A stretch of DNA of 64,000 bases from Candidatus Promineifilum breve. GTDB lineage: Bacteria > Chloroflexota > Anaerolineae > Promineifilales > Promineifilaceae. The stretch covers positions 2,458,726 to 2,522,725 of the forward strand of contig NZ_LN890655.1 of assembly GCF_900066015.1 (NCBI RefSeq), in the 5' to 3' direction. Shown in pieces: positions 12,101 through 44,000 of the stretch. Each line of letters opens with the position of its first letter. Within the stretch, counting starts at the first letter, position 1. The notes under the pieces were generated by a model that was given only the letters and a program-made list of their open reading frames with translations, did no database searches and was not told the origin of the DNA. The translations under genes were made by a program, and so were the position numbers.

Positions 12101-12122
12101 GAAAGAGGAAAATCCTGCGACA

Positions 12123-14687
12123 ATGAATGGTATGCGGGCCACAGACATCATTCGACTGCGACGAGCACGACAAGCCGGGCGGCGTGCCCGGCGCGGGTCG
12201 CGGGCGCTGGCCGGCGCGGCGTTGCTGCCGGCGCTGCTGGTCATGATTGTGCTCGTTGCCGGGCTGGCCGGCGGCGCGGCGGCGCTGCTGGCCCTGACGC
12301 GCGATCTGCCGGCCGTCGAAACGCTGCGCGACTTGCCCGGCCACTTCCGGCCCATCACCGCCACGACCCGCCTCTATGCCGGGGAAGAACCGGCGACGGC
12401 CGGCGCGTCGGGACGGGTGTTGATTGACGAAATCGGCGATCCCCGGCTGGACAGCGCCGGCTGGGTTGCCCTCGATGACCTGCCGCCGGTTGTGCCCACC
12501 GCCTATCTGGCCGTGGTCGATCCGCAATTCATGGCTGCTGCGCCGTCCACGTTCGCTGCCCTGCGCGGCGCGCTCACCAGCCGGGATTCGCCGGTCATTC
12601 AGGAGTTAATCCGCGACCATCTGCGCGGCGGCGCGGTCGGGGCGGCGGGCGACACGCGGCGGGCGTGGCAGGATTGGCTGCTGGCCCGCCAGATGGAGCG
12701 CCTCTACTCGCGCGAGCAATTGCTGGCGTGGACGCTCAACACGCGCTACTTCGGCCATCTGGCCTACGGCATCGAGGCCGCGGCGCGGGTCTATTTCGCC
12801 AAGGGCGCGGCCGACCTGACGCCGGGCGAGGCGGCCCTGCTGGTGGCCGTGGCCCGCGACCCGGCGGCCAACCCGTTCGACGACCCGGCCGGGGCGCGGC
12901 GCGGGCAGGAAGCGGTGCTGTCGGCCCTGGTGGCCGCCGGGGCGCTAACTGTCGAAGAAGCGGCGACTGTGCTGGCCGCGCCGCTCGTCCTCGCCCCCCC
13001 GCCGGGCAGCACCTCGGCCGCGCCGGATTTTGCTCGGCTGGCCCGCCGTGAATTAGAGCGCAGCCTGGGACCGGAACGCCTGCTGGCCGGCGGCTGGCAG
13101 GTGGAGACAACGCTCGATTGGGCGCTACAGACGCAGGCGGCCTGTCTCATCGACATTCAAACCGGGCGAACCGGGCAGACATCAAGCGGCGGCCCAGCCT
13201 GCCCGGCGGCCGATCTGTTGCCTGCTGTGACTGTCTCGCCGACCGGCGCGGCGGCCATCGTGGCCCTCGACCCGGCCACCGGCGCGATCGCCGCGCTGGC
13301 CGGCGACGTGACGACAGCCCATCCCGGCGGCGCGCTCGTCCGGCCGCTCATCTACCTGACCGCATTGAGTCGCGGCTACACGGCGGCGACGTTGACGCTG
13401 GACGTGCCCACCGTCTATCTGCAAAACGGCCGGCCCTACACACCGCGCAACGCCGACGGCCACTATCTCGGCCCGCTGCGCCTGCGCCAGGCATTGGCCG
13501 CCGACCGCGCCGCGCCCGCGGCCCAGGTGCTGGGTTGGGTCGGCGCGGAACGGGTCGTGGCGACGGCGCGGGCGCTGGGGCTGCGAGCCGACGAGCCGGC
13601 GGCGGGATTGGCCTTGGCCGAAGAAGGCTTCCCGGCCGGCCTGCTGGAGATGAGCGCCGCGCTGGCCGCCGTAGCCAATCGCGGGGCGCTGGCCGGCGCG
13701 GCGGACACACTGGGTCAGCCCCGGCCGACGACTATTCGCCGCGTCACCGACGGCGGCGGCGCGGTGGCCTACGCCTATGAGCCGGTGACGCGCGAGGCGC
13801 TGGCCCCGGAACTGGCCTACTTGCTGACCGACATGCTGGCCGGCCGGGACGCGGCTTGCCCGGCCGAGGTCTGCCCGGCCACGTCGGAACTACCCGACGG
13901 GCGGCGGGCGGCGCTGGTCGCAGGCGATGGCTGGGCGGTAGGCGCAACGCCGGAGCGGTTGATCGGGGTGTGGGCGGGCGGCGGCGCGTCACCGGCAATG
14001 GATAACGGCGAGGATGCCGGTTCCCTGTGGCGATCGCTCATGGCCTGGGCGACGGTGGACACGCCGGCCGGCGACTGGCTGCGGCCAACCACATTGCGCC
14101 CGGTGGAGGTGTGTGCGGCATCGGGGTTGTTGCCGTCGCGCGCGGCCGATTGCCCCACGGTGCGCGAGTGGTTCGCGCCGGGCACGGAGCCGTCGGCCGT
14201 GGATACGATGACCCGCGAAGTGGCCGTCAACCGCGAGACGGGCCGGCTGGCGACGATCTTCACCCCGCCGCAACTGGTCGAGCGCCGCGTGGTGACCGAC
14301 TATCCGCCGGAAGCGGCCGGCTGGGCGACGGCGCAGGGGATCGCCATGCCGCCGGCCGAATATGATACTATTCGGCGCATCACCACGCGCAATGGTGGAG
14401 CGACAATTACCGCCCCTGAGCCGTGGTCGGTGGTCAGTGGTCAGTGGTCGGTGGTCGGTTCCGCCGGTGGAGAAGGATTCTCCACCTACAGGCTGGCGTA
14501 TTTTCCCGGGCTGTGGCCGGAGGCGATGGGGATCATCGCCGAGGGGAGTGCGCCGGTGGCAGCGGGGGAGTTGGGGGTATGGGATACGACGCTGGTGGCG
14601 GATGGGCTTTATACGGTATTGCTGACGGTGTTTCGCGGTGATGGGACGTTTGATGAGGTGGCGATTCCGGTGACGGTTGGTAATTGA
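12123..14687 (+). CDS. Class A penicillin-binding-protein homologue, predicted catalytically inactive
   Basis: An 854-residue bitopic protein: basic N-terminus, one membrane helix, a GT51 transglycosylase-like domain (clear in RQMERLYSREQLLAWTLNTR, YFGHLAYGIEAAARVYFAKG) and a transpeptidase-like domain (PLIYLTALSRGYTAATLTLD, TPRNADGHYLGPLRLRQALA). Every expected catalytic motif I could align by eye is altered. The GT51 ED reads VD (near 12515), the HxG and STITQQ segments are lost, and RKxxE reads RAWQD. SxxK reads ALVR (13332-13343), SxN reads DRA (13502-13510) and KTG reads DGW (13926-13934). The frame is nonetheless open throughout. It may be a scaffold or regulator in wall synthesis. The ATG at 12123 is preferred over an upstream TTG. 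Confidence 0.8.
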   Translation: MNGMRATDIIRLRRARQAGRRARRGSRALAGAALLPALLVMIVLVAGLAGGAAALLALTRDLPAVETLRDLPGHFRPITATTRLYAGEEPATAGASGRVLIDEIGDPRLDSAGWVALDDLPPVVPTAYLAVVDPQFMAAAPSTFAALRGALTSRDSPVIQELIRDHLRGGAVGAAGDTRRAWQDWLLARQMERLYSREQLLAWTLNTRYFGHLAYGIEAAARVYFAKGAADLTPGEAALLVAVARDPAANPFDDPAGARRGQEAVLSALVAAGALTVEEAATVLAAPLVLAPPPGSTSAAPDFARLARRELERSLGPERLLAGGWQVETTLDWALQTQAACLIDIQTGRTGQTSSGGPACPAADLLPAVTVSPTGAAAIVALDPATGAIAALAGDVTTAHPGGALVRPLIYLTALSRGYTAATLTLDVPTVYLQNGRPYTPRNADGHYLGPLRLRQALAADRAAPAAQVLGWVGAERVVATARALGLRADEPAAGLALAEEGFPAGLLEMSAALAAVANRGALAGAADTLGQPRPTTIRRVTDGGGAVAYAYEPVTREALAPELAYLLTDMLAGRDAACPAEVCPATSELPDGRRAALVAGDGWAVGATPERLIGVWAGGGASPAMDNGEDAGSLWRSLMAWATVDTPAGDWLRPTTLRPVEVCAASGLLPSRAADCPTVREWFAPGTEPSAVDTMTREVAVNRETGRLATIFTPPQLVERRVVTDYPPEAAGWATAQGIAMPPAEYDTIRRITTRNGGATITAPEPWSVVSGQWSVVGSAGGEGFSTYRLAYFPGLWPEAMGIIAEGSAPVAAGELGVWDTTLVADGLYTVLLTVFRGDGTFDEVAIPVTVGN
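14423..14460. repeat. Heptamer repeat inside a coding region
   Basis: Five GTGGTC(A/G) units lie in frame within the PBP-like gene and encode [12 protein letters not shown]. The surrounding coding frame is not disturbed. Confidence 0.85.
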
Positions 14688-14734: not shown

Positions 14735-15151
14735 CTATTGAAGGACTTGTTCTGGCGTAAGAACGATTAATCCCTCAACACGAGTGAAATGACGCTCGTT
14801 CAGGGTGAGCAGAGGTAAATCGTTGTGTTGACAGACCGCGGCAATCATGACATCTTTCACGCCGATATCCTGGTTAGTGCGAATGAGGGCATCGTGTAAT
14901 GTGGCCGCCCGCGCGGCGGCATCCGCGTCGAACGGCAAAATAGTCATGACTTCCAACAACTGATCTTCACCAATCCTGCGATTAGCGCGAGCTACCCCAA
15001 AAAGCAGTTCGTAAGCAGTGATAGCCGTGATGTAGGGCTGTGCGTTGCGCACAACCCATTCCAAAGCTGTTGCCGCCGGATTACGACCCTTGAGAAACGC
15101 GATCAGAACATTGGTGTCGACGCAGACGCCGGTAAGTTCCATGATTCCCAC
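14735..15151 (-). CDS. vapC: PIN-domain ribonuclease toxin, VapC-like
   Basis: A 138-residue PIN-domain protein with the metal-binding acidic residues in VDTNVLIAFLKG (Asp near residue 12), AITAYELLFGV (Glu), and IGVKDVMIAA (Asp), and a C-terminal TLNERHF motif. VapC toxins cleave RNA, often tRNA or rRNA. The GTG at 15151 is preferred because GGAG lies five bases upstream; ATG at 15142 is the alternative. It overlaps the antitoxin gene by 49 bases, consistent with a translationally coupled type II toxin-antitoxin pair. Confidence 0.88.
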   Translation of the reverse strand: MGIMELTGVCVDTNVLIAFLKGRNPAATALEWVVRNAQPYITAITAYELLFGVARANRRIGEDQLLEVMTILPFDADAAARAATLHDALIRTNQDIGVKDVMIAAVCQHNDLPLLTLNERHFTRVEGLIVLTPEQVLQ

Positions 15152-16914: not shown

Positions 16915-19900
16915 TCAATGATTGTCGATCGTCAGGGGTAAGTAAGCCCCGGTGGGTAATTCAACCTGACGCGCAACGCGCACAGTCTGCTCTAGTTGAT
17001 CGTGATAGGCAAGGATTGGTCGCCCTCCGACCCCCATGGCGATGTCAGCTGCCCAGGAGTTCCCCACCTCATCAATAGTCTGCGATTTCCAGGTCGAGCG
17101 CCCGTCTGACAGCCACATGAGGTGCAAGTAATCGTCCTGAGCAAATACCACAAATGGATGGCCCAGATCATCCACTGTTATGGCTGCGGCCGAAGAACTT
17201 GATTTAATCCCCGAATATAGCAGTGTCCATGAACTGCTGGACCATATGCTATTCGTTGGATGGCCGTAATTCATCTCTCGCCATTCACTGGCAACGACAT
17301 GAGGCATCCCAGTCGCATCTAATGCCAAACCTAATTCGGCCGAAGTATTGCCGGTATAGCCGATGTCCGTCTTCTGCCAATCAGTACCGTTCCAATTGAA
17401 CAGCCAGAGATCCCCCGTGAACATATCGCCACTCAGGATAACGGGATGATGAGGCGCTATTGGCGACAGCGCAAGACGTGGATATTGCAATGTCCAAATG
17501 CTATGTTGGCCCATGGCTACCGTTTGCTTCACCCAGCCGGTATTGGTCCGGGTGGCATAGAGGACATCTCCTTCCATATTCAGATAGGCCACTGACGGCG
17601 TATAAGGGGGCGCGGGTGATATGGCCAAAGAGCCAAATTCCGCGGAGTCAATTACCTCGCTTAGCCATATCCCACCAGACCGATAGGCGTACATCAACTG
17701 GGAATCATCTACATAGACGATGCTCGGTTCAGGCGGATCGGTCGGCGTTAGGGCGATGGACGTAAACCAGTTGCCTGTCAGGCCGGTATTGACTCGTTGC
17801 CAACTGTCACCATCATGCCAGGCATACCAAAGCCGGCTCTGGTCGCCGATACCGGCCACGTAACTTAGATGCGCGCGGTGCGGCGCGGCCGGCTCGACCG
17901 CCAAAGAAACCAACCCCCGCTCACTATTTGCGCCTATTTCCTCGCTCAACCATCCCTCTGAAACCGGGGGTTCGCCCGTGGGCGTGGGTGATGGCGTGCT
18001 GGTCGGGGGAACGACTAGCGTCGCTGTCGGCGTCGCCGTTGGGGTGCGGGAGGGAGTGGGCGATGGCGTAGTTGTCGCAGTCGGGGTGAAGGACGGTGTG
18101 GGTGATGGCGTGGGATTCGGGCCGGATGAAAATTCCAGAATCAGGAGACCGCTGCTATCATCGGCGACGTAGACGTAATCCCCGGCCACAAACACACCCC
18201 AGGCAAAGCCCGACGTATCGTAGAAGCCGGCGCTGGTTGGCGCGGCCGGATTAGCGACGTTGACAATCGATAAACCACTCTCGCTGCCGACATAGGCATA
18301 CTCCCCATCCACGACCACGTCCAGGGCATCCTCTATGGCATAGGCGCCGGCCTGGAGCGGGGCAGCCGGGTTGGTAACGTCAAGAATCAGCAGCCCTTCG
18401 TAATAATCGGCTACATAGGCGTAGTTCCCCACCACGTCGACACCTTCGGCGCCAAATGTGTTATAGGTAGTGACTTCAGCCGGAGCAGCCGGGTTGGCGA
18501 CGTTGAGGATTCGCAATCCGGCGTTCCAGTCGGCAACGTAGGCGTATGCTCCGGCCACGACGATATTCTGGGGCATTGGCTCCCCCGACATGTTGACAAA
18601 CCCGGTTTCGGCTGGCGTGTGCGGGTTGGTTACGTTGATTACCCGTAAACTCGTCTCATTGACAACGTACGCATAGTTCCCGGCCACGGCCACGGCCACG
18701 GCTCCTCCGGTGTCAACGAAGGCGACCTCGACCGGATTAGCCGGATTGGTAAGCTGCATAATCCGCAGGCCATTACCCAACGGAATGTAGGCAAAGTTGC
18801 CCACCACGACCAGCGTTCCCGAACCGTGTTGGATATAGCCGGCCTGGGTCGGGGCTGCCGGATTGGCGACGTCGATGATCTGCAAGCCACCGTCATACCA
18901 CCCCCTGAGGACGTAGGCATAATTCCCGGCGACGGTCACGCTGTCAATGCGCCCCTGCCCATGATAAGAGCCGGTCTCGGCCGGCACGGGCAGGTCGGCG
19001 ATGTGAATGATCCGTACACTCCTCAAAGCATCGACGACGTAGGCGAACGCCCCGTTCACGGTTAAAGCCCACGCATCCTTCATATAATTGACGCCGGCTT
19101 CGGTTGGCGCGGCCGGGTTGGTGACATCGATAATCCGCAGACCATCCAGACGACCGGCGATGTAGACGTAGTTACCGGCCGTGGCTACATCCCAGGCACG
19201 ATCCTGAATCTCGTACTGGGCGACCTCCGTCGGGGCTGCCGGATTGGCGACATCGATGATCTGTAGATGCCGATAGCCATCAACGACATAGACATAGTTC
19301 CCGCCAGCCGCCACTGCCCGACCGAACTTATCGCCATAAGAAGTGACCAGGGTCGGATTGGTCGGGTCGGCAATGCTGACAATCCCCAATCCAAAATTAG
19401 TGGCAAGATAGGCATACGCGCCGGCCACAGCGACATCGAGGACGGTTGCGTCGATATCGAGATATTCGACCGGAATCGGCTGAGCCGGAGAGGCGATATC
19501 GATGATATGCAAACCGCCATATGTGGCTACGTAGGCGTATGCTCCGGCCACGACGACGCTCAGAGAGGTACCCGGCAGGGGGATAGCGGCGACCTGAACC
19601 GGGTTGGCCGGGTCGGCCACGTTGGCGATCAGTAGCCCGGCTTCCCCGGCAGCCATATAGGCAAACTCACCGGCCACGGCGACATCCAGTACCGCGCCCG
19701 GCAAAGGGGACGATCTGCCCACCACAACCGGCTGGGCCGGATTGGCAATACCGAGAATGGTCAGCCTGATCCCCTCGCCAACGTAGGCATAGGCCCCTTG
19801 AACGTCCACCACTTTGATAGCGCCGCCAAATTGGCCCACTAATGCAACGTTTTCGGCATCGGTCGGGGTGGCGGCCGTGCCCGAGGCCCTTTCCGCGGGC

Positions 19901-20007
19901 GTCGTCGTAGCCGCCGGCGCTCCCATGACAAGCCTGGTGGCGAGAATGGATAACAGGAGGATGATGAGGCAAGGTATGGCCCAACGACGGTTCATATGAC
20001 TGTTCAT
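16915..20007 (-). CDS. Secreted LVIVD-repeat beta-propeller protein
   Basis: A 1030-residue protein. A signal peptide (residues about 8-30) is followed by 14 repeats of about 42 residues. Each has a VAGNYAYV-type strand and a G-L-RIIDVANPAAP-type strand, the LVIVD pattern. A PTPTP-rich linker (residues about 630-690) separates them from a 300-residue C-terminal region with its own SxW/W-rich, sialidase-like repeats (YVAGIGDQSRLWYAWHDGD). Fourteen repeats could make two seven-bladed propellers. It is probably a surface or secreted binding protein. GGAG precedes the ATG at 20007. It is first-neighbour to two other secreted proteins on the same strand. Confidence 0.85.
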   Translation of the reverse strand: MNSHMNRRWAIPCLIILLLSILATRLVMGAPAATTTPAERASGTAATPTDAENVALVGQFGGAIKVVDVQGAYAYVGEGIRLTILGIANPAQPVVVGRSSPLPGAVLDVAVAGEFAYMAAGEAGLLIANVADPANPVQVAAIPLPGTSLSVVVAGAYAYVATYGGLHIIDIASPAQPIPVEYLDIDATVLDVAVAGAYAYLATNFGLGIVSIADPTNPTLVTSYGDKFGRAVAAGGNYVYVVDGYRHLQIIDVANPAAPTEVAQYEIQDRAWDVATAGNYVYIAGRLDGLRIIDVTNPAAPTEAGVNYMKDAWALTVNGAFAYVVDALRSVRIIHIADLPVPAETGSYHGQGRIDSVTVAGNYAYVLRGWYDGGLQIIDVANPAAPTQAGYIQHGSGTLVVVGNFAYIPLGNGLRIMQLTNPANPVEVAFVDTGGAVAVAVAGNYAYVVNETSLRVINVTNPHTPAETGFVNMSGEPMPQNIVVAGAYAYVADWNAGLRILNVANPAAPAEVTTYNTFGAEGVDVVGNYAYVADYYEGLLILDVTNPAAPLQAGAYAIEDALDVVVDGEYAYVGSESGLSIVNVANPAAPTSAGFYDTSGFAWGVFVAGDYVYVADDSSGLLILEFSSGPNPTPSPTPSFTPTATTTPSPTPSRTPTATPTATLVVPPTSTPSPTPTGEPPVSEGWLSEEIGANSERGLVSLAVEPAAPHRAHLSYVAGIGDQSRLWYAWHDGDSWQRVNTGLTGNWFTSIALTPTDPPEPSIVYVDDSQLMYAYRSGGIWLSEVIDSAEFGSLAISPAPPYTPSVAYLNMEGDVLYATRTNTGWVKQTVAMGQHSIWTLQYPRLALSPIAPHHPVILSGDMFTGDLWLFNWNGTDWQKTDIGYTGNTSAELGLALDATGMPHVVASEWREMNYGHPTNSIWSSSSWTLLYSGIKSSSSAAAITVDDLGHPFVVFAQDDYLHLMWLSDGRSTWKSQTIDEVGNSWAADIAMGVGGRPILAYHDQLEQTVRVARQVELPTGAYLPLTIDNH

Positions 20008-34832: not shown

Positions 34833-35414
34833 ATGAAGATTGGCGTATTGGCGTTGCAAGGCGCGTTTATCGAGCACATCCAGATTTTGCGCGGCTTGGG
34901 CGTCGAGGCGGTCGAGGTGCGGCTGCCGGGCGATCTGGAAGGGCTGGACGGCCTGATCATCCCCGGCGGCGAGAGCACGACCATCGGCAAACTGGCCGAC
35001 ACTTACGCCCTGATGAGTCCGCTGCGCCAGTTCGCGGCCGACAAGCCCGTCTGGGGCACGTGCGCCGGGATGATCTTCATGGCCCGCGAGCTGCACAGCG
35101 GTGACGGCCACCGTGACCAACCGCTATTGGGCGTGATGGACGTAGTCGTGGAGCGCAACGCCTTCGGCCGCCAGGTCGATAGCTTCATCACCCCCATCGA
35201 CGTCGCCCCGTTCGCGGGCGAGCCGTTCCCGGCCGTCTTCATCCGCGGCCCGCGTCTGGTGGAGGCCCACGGCGAAGCGCGCATCATCGCCCGTCTGGCC
35301 GACGGCACGCCCGTGGCCGCGCAGGAAGGGCATTGGCTGGTCACATCCTTCCACCCCGAATTGACGGGGGATAGCCGGTTCCACGACTATTTTGTGAAGA
35401 TGATTGGGGAATAG
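34833..35414 (+). CDS. pdxT: Pyridoxal 5'-phosphate synthase glutaminase subunit
   Basis: A 193-residue class I glutamine amidotransferase. It shows LALQGAFIEHI, GLIIPGGESTTIGKL, the nucleophile cysteine in WGTCAGMIFMA, and the catalytic HPE in VTSFHPELTGD. With PdxS, which is not in the window, it makes PLP from ribose 5-phosphate, glyceraldehyde 3-phosphate and glutamine. PLP is the cofactor of the tryptophanase encoded nearby. CGGAGA precedes the ATG. The stop TAG is the first triplet of a palindromic repeat. Confidence 0.95.
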   Translation: MKIGVLALQGAFIEHIQILRGLGVEAVEVRLPGDLEGLDGLIIPGGESTTIGKLADTYALMSPLRQFAADKPVWGTCAGMIFMARELHSGDGHRDQPLLGVMDVVVERNAFGRQVDSFITPIDVAPFAGEPFPAVFIRGPRLVEAHGEARIIARLADGTPVAAQEGHWLVTSFHPELTGDSRFHDYFVKMIGE

Positions 35415-35464
35415 TGGATAGTGGACAGTGGTCAGTCTGACCACTGACCACTGACCACTGTCTA
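35412..35464. repeat. Heptamer palindrome supplying the stop codons of both convergent genes
   Basis: The element starts TAGTGGATAGTGGACAGTGG and ends with the near-complement GACCACTGACCACTGTCTA. The first TAG is the pdxT stop; the last CTA, read on the minus strand, is the TAG stop of the histidine kinase. Confidence 0.93.
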
Positions 35465-36583
35465 CTGCCGACGGGGGAGGACGACGGTGAACGTCGCCCC
35501 ACCGCCGGGGTTATTCTCGGCGAAGATGCAGCCGTGGTGCTCGGCCACGATGCCCTGGGCGATGAAGAGGCCCAGCCCCGTGCCCTGGCCGCGCGGCTTG
35601 GTGGTGAAGAACGGCTCAAAGATGCGCTCCATGATCGTGGGCGCGATGCCCGTGCCCGTGTCGGCCACGGAGAAGGCGAACAGATCATCGGCCGCCGCGC
35701 CGTTGCCGTTGCGGGGCATGACGGCCCGGACATGGGCGGCCAGCGCCGTCTCCCGGCGCAGGTCGGGCGTCCAGAACTTGACCCCCACCACCCCGCCGGC
35801 CGGCTGCATGGCGTCACGGGCGTTGATGAGCAGGTTGATCAGCACCTGGGCGATGCGGTGATGGTCGCAAAAAATGGTCGCCGGGTCGGGCTGAAGTTCC
35901 GTCTCCACCGTCACCCGGGCCTGCTTGCGGAATTGCTGCTCGACCATCGTCAGCGCGTCCTGCATGATGGCCGCCGGGCTGGTGATGGCGATGGTCATGC
36001 CATCCTCCGCCGCGCCGTCGGGTGCGGGGCCGACGTTATGGGCGTAATGGCGCAGCACCTCGACGATGCGGGCGCAACGGAAGGCGCTCTGCTCGATCAA
36101 CTCCACCGCTTGCAGCAGTTCGGCACGATCGATAGTTTCGTCCCGCAACTCGTCGGCCAGATTGGCGCAGGTCGTGGTGATGATGCTGATCGGGTTGGTC
36201 AGCTCGTGGGCCACGCTGGCCGTCAAGGTGCCGATGCCGGCCAGCCGCTGGGCGTGGAGCAGCGACTCATTGAGCCGCTCCAACTCATCGCGCTTCATAA
36301 ACGACAGCAGGCGGCCACCCTCGGCCGCGCCGTTCAGCGGCGTCACGTCCAGCGTCACCGGCAACGTCTCGCCATTGCGGCGCGTTAATTCGGCGTCCTG
36401 CGCCCGCGTTCGCGCCGGCGAGCGATGCCCCAGCCACATATCCGATACAAATAGATTCGTCAATTGTCCAGCCCCATACCCAAGCAGCGCTTCGGCCGCC
36501 CGATTCGCCGACAGAATCTTCCCCTGCTCATCAACAATTACCACGCCTTCCCTGGCGTGGCGTCCCGCGTATTCAATTTCCAC
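35462..36583 (-). CDS. PAS-domain sensor histidine kinase
   Basis: A 373-residue soluble kinase. A PAS domain (residues about 8-100: GVVIVDEQGKILSANRAAEA) precedes the dimerisation helix with the phospho-acceptor His in GTLTASVAHELTNPISIITT, and a HATPase_c domain with N box LLINARDAMQPA, G1 VADTGTGIA and G2 GQGTGLGLFIAQG. No membrane helix is present, so it senses a cytosolic signal, perhaps redox or a ligand bound by the PAS domain. No response regulator is adjacent. The divergent neighbour is msrP. Confidence 0.9.
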   Translation of the reverse strand: MEIEYAGRHAREGVVIVDEQGKILSANRAAEALLGYGAGQLTNLFVSDMWLGHRSPARTRAQDAELTRRNGETLPVTLDVTPLNGAAEGGRLLSFMKRDELERLNESLLHAQRLAGIGTLTASVAHELTNPISIITTTCANLADELRDETIDRAELLQAVELIEQSAFRCARIVEVLRHYAHNVGPAPDGAAEDGMTIAITSPAAIMQDALTMVEQQFRKQARVTVETELQPDPATIFCDHHRIAQVLINLLINARDAMQPAGGVVGVKFWTPDLRRETALAAHVRAVMPRNGNGAAADDLFAFSVADTGTGIAPTIMERIFEPFFTTKPRGQGTGLGLFIAQGIVAEHHGCIFAENNPGGGATFTVVLPRRQ

Positions 36584-41035: not shown

Positions 41036-44000
41036 ATGATGGTCAAACGCCAAGAAAACCCTCATGGATCCGATATCTTCCAGTTTCTGGCCGCCGATGA
41101 ACGGCAGCGTTTGATCCGCCTGCTGTCCGAGTTGCCGCTCATCCTGACCGGCGGCGCCGATGGTCGCCTGGCCTTTCTCAATAGCAACGGCCTTCTGGAA
41201 TTGAGCACCCGCTTGCCGATGGCCGACAATGCCCAGCTCTTTGCCGGGTTGCTGGTCATCACCGCCGAGGGGCAGGGCGAACCGCTGGCGCACCGGCCGG
41301 GCTACCACGCTCTGGGCGCGGTCTGCGACGGCGTGCTGCAACTGGACGACGCGCCGCGCGACGACCGGCCGTTCCTGGCCCAATTGATCGCGCGCTATGC
41401 CCTGGTGGAAGATGAGGCGGTAGTGGCCCGCCTGCGCGACGAGTTCGGCCCGGCGGCCAAGAGCACGCCCTGGCGGCAACTGCGCCGCCAAATCACCGCT
41501 AACGATTTCGCCGACAGTGTCGGCCAGTTGCTTAGCGCCCGCTACGCGCCCTACATCACCAGCTTCATGGTCCCGGCGGCGGTGGCCGCCGGCATCGAAG
41601 GGCAGCCACCGGCGCCGGGCGACCCGCCCTATAAGGGGCTGCAATATTTCGACGAGGCCGACGCCGACCACTTTCTCGGCCGCGAGGCGCTGACGGCGCG
41701 GCTGGCCGGTCGCCTGCGCGCCGAGCGCTTCCTGGCCGTCATCGGCGCGTCGGGCAGCGGTAAATCGTCGGTCGTGCGCGCCGGGTTGATCCCCGCCCTG
41801 CGACGCGGCAAGCCGTTGGGCGATGGGGCGCTGCCGCCGGCCGGTTCCGACCAATGGCTTATCCGCGTGATGACGCCCACGGCCCACCCGCTCGACGCGC
41901 TGGCCGCCGCGCTGCTGCCCGAGGCCGAACCGGCGGCGGTGGTGGCGCTGCGGGATGGGTTGGCGGCCTCACCCACGGCGCTGGCCGACCATAGACCACA
42001 GACCACAGACCACCGCCCCCTGCTGCTGGTCGTCGATCAATTTGAAGAGGTCTTCTCCCTGGCTCGCCACGAAGATGAGCGGCGGGCCTTCATCGACAAT
42101 CTGGTGACGGCGGCCACCGCCGCGACCGGAACGCGGGTGGTCATCGTCCTGCGCGCCGACTTCTACGACCGCTGCGCCCAATACGACGGCCTGCGCGAAC
42201 TGGTGTCGCAACACCAGGAGTACATCGGCGCGATGAGCCGCGAGGAGTTGTTCCGGGTCATCGTGCTGCCCGCGGCCCGCGCCGCGTGGCAGATTCAGGA
42301 AGGGCTGGTCGAGACGATGCTCGACGACGTGGGCGACGAGCCGGGGGCGCTGCCGCTGCTGTCCCACGCCCTGTTGGAGACCTGGGCGCGGCGGCGCGGC
42401 CGGACGATGACCCTCTCCGGCTACCGCGAGGCGGGCGGCGTGCGCGGGGCCATCGCCAAGACGGCCGAGACCGTCTTCCGCCAACGCCTGACGGCCGAGC
42501 AGCGCCCCATTGCCCGCATGATCTTCGTCCGCCTGACCGAACTGGGCGAGAGCGCCGCCGCCGACACGCCCGACACCCGCCGCCGCGCCCAGTTCAGCGA
42601 GCTGATCACCCGCGCCACCGACGCGCCGACGCTGGAGCTTGTGCTGGGCATCCTCATCGATTCGCGGCTGGTGACGACCGACATCGTGCCGCCGGGCGAG
42701 ACGAAGGTGGTCGAGGTGTGCCACGAGGCGCTCATCCGCGAATGGCCCACGCTGCGCGACTGGCTCAATCAGGATCGCGAGGGGCTGATTCGCCACCGCC
42801 AGTTGACGGCCGACGTCAACGACTGGCTCAATCTGGGGCGCGACCCCGGCGCGCTCTATCGCGGGGCGCGGCTGCAACAGGCGTTGGGCTGGACGGCTGC
42901 GCCGCCCGACCCGTTGAGCGTGGCCGAGCTGGAGTTCCTGGAGGCCAGCCGGGCCGCGGCCGAGGAAGAGACGCGCCGCGCCGAGCGGCTGGCGAAATCG
43001 ACGCGCAACCAGCGCGTCCTGATCGGCCTGGCCGCCGTCCTGCTGCTGGGGGTCATCGCCGCCGTGCTCTACAACCTGGGCGTGTTCGATCCGCCGGTGG
43101 AGACGATGACCGGCGATTTCAAGGTGGCCGTGGCCCAGTTTGCCGTGCTCGATGAGGCCGGCCAATTGAGCGGCGGCGACGCCGGGCGGCAAATCGCCGA
43201 GCGCATCGGCCTCGACCTGGCCGGCGAATCGGGGCTGGACCTGAGCGTCTGGTTCGATGGCCCGGCCAGCCCGGACTCCGGCCACGTGCCCATCGGTGTA
43301 GTCGGCGAGGGCATCGACGGCGCGGCCGATCCGGCGGCCGTGGCCGAGCAGATCAAGGCCGACATGATCATCTACGGCTGGGTGGAGCCGGACGGCGAAT
43401 TCGGCAACCTGTCGGCGCGCATCTATGCCCGGCCCCAATTCGGTTCCAACGTGGCGCGCGCCTCCGGCATCTACAACCTCGTCAGCGACATCCCGGTTTT
43501 CGACGTCAATGAGCCGGGCAATGACGTCTGGCTGCGGCTGGACCCCTACGCGCGGGCGGCGGCGCGGATCATGCTCGGCCTGCGCCAGCAGCTCTTGGGC
43601 GACGAAGCGTTTGCTCTGGCTCAATTTGAGCGGGCCGCGGAACTGGCCCCCGACATGGACATGGCCCATTATTTTGTGGGACAGGGCAATGTATTCCTGG
43701 CGCAGGCGGGGGGAACCATCGATGGCGAGCGGCTGGCGGCGGCCGAGGCGGCTTTCGATCAGGCCCTGGCGCTGAACCCGGCCAACCCGCGGGCGCAAAG
43801 CGGGGCGGGCAGCATCCACTATCTGCGGGCGCAGGCGCTGCTGGATGCGTCCACGGCCGAGGATTTCAGCGGCGACAGCGTGGCCGCCGTCGAGGAGGCC
43901 ATCGCCGAGGCGCGGTTGGCGCTGGCGGCCTATGCGCCAATCGCCGGCGGGCCGGAGCAGCAGGAGATCTACGGCTGGCCCGTCGCCAGCCTGGCGAAGT

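Follow-up and report, generated by a model that had tools for sequence, protein, structure and literature searches.

A class A penicillin-binding protein of Chloroflexota lacking both sets of catalytic residues and probably maintained as a pseudoenzyme

Within the window (the whole 64,000-nt stretch of Candidatus Promineifilum breve DNA that was analysed), one plus-strand gene encodes a degenerate class A penicillin-binding protein (PBP). The first-pass annotation had placed this gene correctly as an open frame and had described a preserved GT51-like and transpeptidase-like layout, which is supported by a Pfam match to GT51 and by the PBP fold of an AlphaFold2 model (Table 1). The glycosyltransferase (GT) domain matches PF00912 with an E-value of 5e-21 and 75 bits against a cut-off of 27, while the match to the transpeptidase (TP) family PF00905 stays below threshold (17.8 bits; cut-off 22.1). 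NCBIfam TIGR02074 (PBP_1a_fam) returned an E-value of 1e-67, but its 229 bits fall short of the curated cut-off of 508.75. A hydrophobic helix predicted within residues 6-59, from the model and the translation, would serve as the N-terminal membrane anchor, and residues 640-854 gave no Pfam match.

Table 1 Features of the degenerate PBP gene and tandem repeat runs, in window coordinates
Feature	Position	Strand	Basis or remark
Degenerate class A PBP ORF, 854 aa plus stop	12123..14687	+	Open frame, no stop
Alternative in-frame starts	12078 (TTG), 12132 (ATG)	+	
Putative Shine-Dalgarno-like AGAGGA	12104..12109	+	Direct reading of letters
N-terminal membrane helix region, residues 6-59	12138..12299	+	Predicted helix; hydrophobic stretch in translation
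GT51 domain, residues 111-290	12453..12992	+	Pfam PF00912; alignments
GT motif 1: VVDPQF replaces xEDxxF, catalytic Glu = V132	12513..12530	+	Alignment
GT motif 2: DSPVIQEL (155-162) replaces GSxITQQL	12585..12608	+	Alignment
GT motif 3: RRAWQD replaces RKxxE (R180-A-W-Q-D184)	12657..12674	+	Alignment
Linker, residues 291-372, with conserved cysteines C341 and C360	12993..13238	+	Structure model; alignment
Transpeptidase-like domain, residues 373-645	13239..14057	+	Model; VIA-align match to PBP1a/PBP1b; sub-threshold PF00905
SxxK position: G-A-L-V-R-P, S to A404, K to R407	13329..13346	+	Alignment
SxN position: D461-R-A463	13503..13511	+	Alignment
KTG position: V599-A-G601, followed by a shortened loop	13917..13925	+	Alignment
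C-terminal region, residues 646-854: C664...C677 segment and one Ig-like beta-sandwich	14058..14684	+	
(GTGGTCA)n runs	14423-14456, 164-197, 2169-2195, 30131-30171, 35414-35472, 41987-42013		

The seven-base tandem repeat (GTGGTCA)n recurs at several sites of the window, with 18 matches against 0.02 expected. Its run inside the PBP coding sequence encodes 13 residues of the Ig-like domain, the length of which is unchanged relative to intact orthologues. Judging by their translations, a small ORF just downstream of the PBP gene (14735-15151, minus strand) resembles a PIN-domain (VapC-like) protein, and a further minus-strand gene (16915-20007) would encode a secreted protein of 1030 residues with many LVIVD-like repeats.

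The AlphaFold2 model, built with 48 homologues, reached a mean pLDDT of 88.5 and a pTM of 0.78. In VIA-align comparisons it superposed on PBP1a (4oon) with Z 40.4 over 363 residues at 2.6 Å and on E. coli PBP1b entries with Z about 39 over more than 500 residues; the large rmsd of the latter probably reflects domains set at a different angle. The transpeptidase fold of the model is matched with Z 37-40 by PBP1a, PBP1b and PonA1. The predicted fold is thus confidently PBP1a/PBP1b-like, although a common fold by itself proves no function. The last Big_7 Ig domain, present in an intact orthologue and in two other degenerate ones, is missing from the window PBP. An intact orthologue gave a poorer model (pLDDT 75, pTM 0.53), which was left out of the comparison.

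Motif positions were set by alignment with two intact paralogues from the same genome (L002 and L003) and with intact orthologues. The substitutions that had first been proposed by eye were largely borne out: ED reads V132-D133, RKxxE reads RAWQD, the Ser and Lys of SxxK are replaced by Ala and Arg (ALVR), and SxN reads DRA. The proposed change of KTG to DGW stood as a loss but not in its register, since the KTG column aligns with VAG (599-601), and D602 and W604 belong to an RDxW segment that is conserved just after this column in intact enzymes too. The replacement of TITQQ by DSPVIQEL is an extra loss, absent from the earlier list. The GT motif 4/5 region (N206...Y224-F-x-K227) is kept while motifs 1-3 are lost. 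Intact catalytic residues elsewhere in the protein, which would have overturned the initial reading, were looked for and not found: K227, within the conserved YFxK segment, is the sole lysine, and a scan of the whole protein revealed no SxxK, SxN or KTG at any other position, so the active sites have not moved and relocated catalytic residues can be ruled out. Neither ED/TQQ/RKxxE nor SxxK/SxN/KTG, the defining catalytic features of a functional class A PBP, is present. As judged by alignment, the protein is without the residues on which GT51 and transpeptidase catalysis depend, and annotation as a functional bifunctional PBP is therefore unwarranted.

The same losses extend across the genus. 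All five congeneric orthologues, 57-61% identical to the window PBP, have lost every motif in open frames, as the first-pass annotation had proposed to check. Nine orthologues from further genera of the window's family are likewise degenerate, to differing degrees, with ED kept in some (G025, G027), KTG in one (G034) and SxN in one (G024). An intact SxxK occurs in none of the 15 degenerate family members while the other motifs are variably kept, a pattern that fits a course in which the transpeptidase constraint would have been lost first and the remaining motifs eroded later. Other genera of the window's family keep the motifs, and intact orthologues in sister genera (e.g. L048_G030, L047_G067) share 39-40% identity with the window PBP. 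Beyond the family, the motifs are kept in 35 of 37 class A PBPs, a count that does not include the f21 set described below; the exceptions are G057 (of f21) and G178. At twelve columns where intact enzymes are invariant, the window genus is invariant too but has another residue, as might be seen if the old sites had been recruited to new chemistry. However, these columns hold no plausible new catalytic set, and the catalytic columns themselves differ from one congener to another (A or T for Ser; R or Q for Lys), which leaves such recruitment very improbable.

A second degenerate lineage was found in family f21, reached via G057. All 27 of its genomes with a readable SxxK region are without the Ser/Lys pair, SxN and KTG; most retain ED, and most have lost TQQ and RKxxE (L172 / L221-L248). 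This family appears to have lost the catalytic Ser and Lys separately from the window's family. The large gene tree requires two changes in all to account for the degenerate state, and G178 (f49) was consequently not counted as a third origin. Within the window's family, the gene tree unites the 15 degenerate members in a single clade (SH-aLRT 99), while the rpoB tree scatters them and needs six changes. Approximately unbiased (AU) tests did not reject a grouping of G024 with G067 (p 0.23) and rejected one of G025 with G012 and G008 (p 0.0002). The conflict between the gene and rpoB trees could stem from long-branch attraction or from replacement by transfer. Because the trees disagree, the AU tests are split and the branches are long, we limit the overall claim to at least two losses. 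We consider it an evenly balanced question whether a class A PBP lineage of this Chloroflexota class gave rise on two or more occasions to a double pseudoenzyme that preserved the fold and was then long kept.

Each genome of the window's family contained at most one match at E ≤ 1e-90, with some doubt owing to genomes of low completeness. Among the congeners, the order dGTPase, LysM protein, divergent biotin ligase and PBP recurs wherever the contig extends far enough. Elsewhere in the family, a divergent KBL/BioF-like gene upstream and a histidine kinase-pdxT-pdxS group downstream are common to intact and degenerate loci, an arrangement from which the neighbourhood in the window genus differs (all gene names are taken from translations). 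Given these common flanks, the dead gene would occupy the place of the live gene in those genera. A dead duplicate beside a live copy is countered by the same flanks and by the single match per genome, within the limits of completeness, and the observations argue for loss in place rather than in a spare copy.

Catalytic capacity is present elsewhere in these genomes. The window's genome encodes two intact class A PBPs as well as SEDS proteins and other transpeptidase-domain proteins, and each of eight further degenerate-lineage genomes examined has at least two class A PBPs with intact transpeptidase motifs. The window PBP might dampen an intact class A PBP such as these two by pairing with it or with its activator, and the preserved fold could permit such pairing. 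A conserved shared neighbour gene is absent, however, and we regard this kind of negative regulation as rather improbable. Two further observations concern the PBP complement of these genomes. Outside the window, a frame of 950 codons (G000:C1:70081-72522) matches both SEDS (FtsW/RodA) and transpeptidase families, and is an apparent SEDS-PBP fusion. A different class A PBP paralogue, L299 (G296:C7:39987-41939), is also degenerate, PGATVMP standing in place of SxxK and KINH in place of KTG, so more than one orthologue group may have lost catalysis.

Selection was assessed by pairwise GY94 codon estimates. Pairs within the window genus, in which dS is saturated, gave dN of 0.29-0.41 and full-length ω ≤0.14; per-domain ω was ≤0.22 in the pairs tested, and ω = 1 was rejected in every test, again under saturated dS. 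An unsaturated pair from f21 (G212/G311) yielded ω 0.079 (dS 0.29, dN 0.023; likelihood ratio 257). Intact paralogues, mostly from the same genomes, showed dN of 0.06-0.17 at dS of 1.2-2.0, and the degenerate PBP evolves two to five times faster than these. As the rate exceeds that of the intact paralogues and ω is nevertheless far below 1, constraint appears relaxed yet real. These values bear on the alternative, raised at the outset, of a recently silenced gene that is now decaying. The lost catalytic motifs, the faster protein evolution and the absence of the last Ig domain from the window genus would suit a pseudogene, but the frames are open in all six congeners, whose pairwise identities are 52-59%, ω is far below 1 in every domain as well as in the close f21 pair, and the fold is predicted with high confidence. 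With neither stops or frameshifts nor ω near 1, simple decay is rejected as the explanation, and we attach next to no probability to it.

The remaining constraint is unevenly distributed along the protein. We counted the positions with a conservation of 90% or more among 59 intact orthologues: in the window genus 22 of 26 are kept in the C-terminal region, 38 of 87 in the TP domain and 24 of 53 in the GT domain, and the corresponding fractions in f21 are 22/26, 45/87 and 32/53. The C-terminal region thus appears best protected in both lineages, on counts that are small and in a part of the protein that is harder to align. Within the GT domain, N206, G211, Y215-G216, A219-A220, Y224 and K227 are conserved in both degenerate lineages. 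This conservation of the motif 4/5 region, together with the retention of about half of the intact-invariant GT and TP positions, might indicate a sensor or decoy whose cleft can hold lipid II, glycan strands or stem peptides but performs no chemistry on them. Against this, the TQQ and RKxxE residues lining the GT cleft and the peptide-binding SxN and KTG are lost, the kept residues may merely support folding, and conservation is concentrated in the C-terminal region. We therefore consider a substrate-binding pseudoenzyme unlikely, though the least improbable of the alternatives.

Taken together, the catalytic residues are lost, the fold is kept and the gene is under purifying selection. We are highly confident that the window PBP is a selected pseudoenzyme, dead in both domains and not decaying. 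This reading, first put forward from the letters of the sequence, is strongly supported by the losses that orthologues share, a dN/dS far below 1, a long-open frame, the PBP fold and the second lineage. The preservation of fold and selection across many Chloroflexota genera makes a non-catalytic structural or regulatory job probable; a specific assignment as scaffold or regulator is one that we would neither favour nor disfavour. The particular roles named in the first-pass annotation, a divisome or elongasome scaffold and a lipid II sensor, would be candidates. On balance, the account we find best overall, and hold to be somewhat probable, is that of a selected, non-catalytic partner, dead in both domains, with a C-terminal interface. 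In such an account, the protein would be anchored in the membrane and would assist the peptidoglycan-synthesis machinery as a structural or allosteric partner. It would make its contacts mainly through the conserved C-terminal region, with its cysteines and Ig-like domain, and the dead GT/TP body would act as a scaffold or stalk. The two intact class A PBPs, together with SEDS/class B enzymes, would polymerise and cross-link the wall. Against this account, synteny points to no dedicated partner, the neighbours being housekeeping genes. One of several redundant class A PBPs might already have had a structural role, after which the transpeptidase constraint would have relaxed first and the GT constraint later.

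If this is true, selection can act on a structural function of class A PBPs that centres on the C-terminal region and can be separated from both polymerisation and cross-linking. PBP roles beyond catalysis have so far been approached mainly through engineered dead mutants; here, natural lineages would offer a maintained protein with both class A centres gone, and unconverted sister species for comparison. The finding also calls for caution in annotation, as the name 'penicillin-binding protein' will probably be given to proteins of this kind although they offer no serine for acylation. This bears on the prediction of beta-lactam targets and of cell-wall synthesis in Chloroflexota that are common in the environment.

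In the open-access literature searched, we found no report of a natural class A PBP pseudoenzyme dead in both domains, which does not imply that none exists. The closest structural relatives are of the PBP1a type (PBP1a 4oon; A. baumannii PBP1a 3udf), which have the same TM-GT51-linker-TP order and fold. The window PBP differs from them in being without the catalytic Glu, TQQ, RKxxE, SxxK, SxN and KTG, and is about a quarter identical to PBP chains in the PDB. PbpC/PBP1c proteins likewise combine GT51 and TP domains with an extra C-terminal region, but the matches of the window PBP to their models (TIGR02073, 5e-37; NF051885, 2e-43) lie far below the curated cut-offs. The window PBP is an orthologue of intact class A PBPs found in its own family and class. 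The intact sister-genus orthologues are, like the degenerate members, present in one copy per genome above threshold and share gene neighbours with other degenerate members; in contrast to the window PBP, they have all motifs intact and one more Big_7 Ig domain.

The closest functional parallels come from class B enzymes. In B. subtilis, PBP 2B plays a structural part for which catalysis is not required, its dead form supporting division when PBP 3 supplies activity (PMC5656894). In C. difficile, the activity of PBP3 is dispensable for its promotion of asymmetric division (PMC12713402). Both resemble the role that we infer for the window PBP, in that wall assembly is supported without transpeptidase activity. 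PBP 2B and PBP3, however, are naturally active, and their non-catalytic role was revealed by engineered dead mutants, whereas the window PBP is a class A protein in which both centres have been lost naturally across whole lineages.
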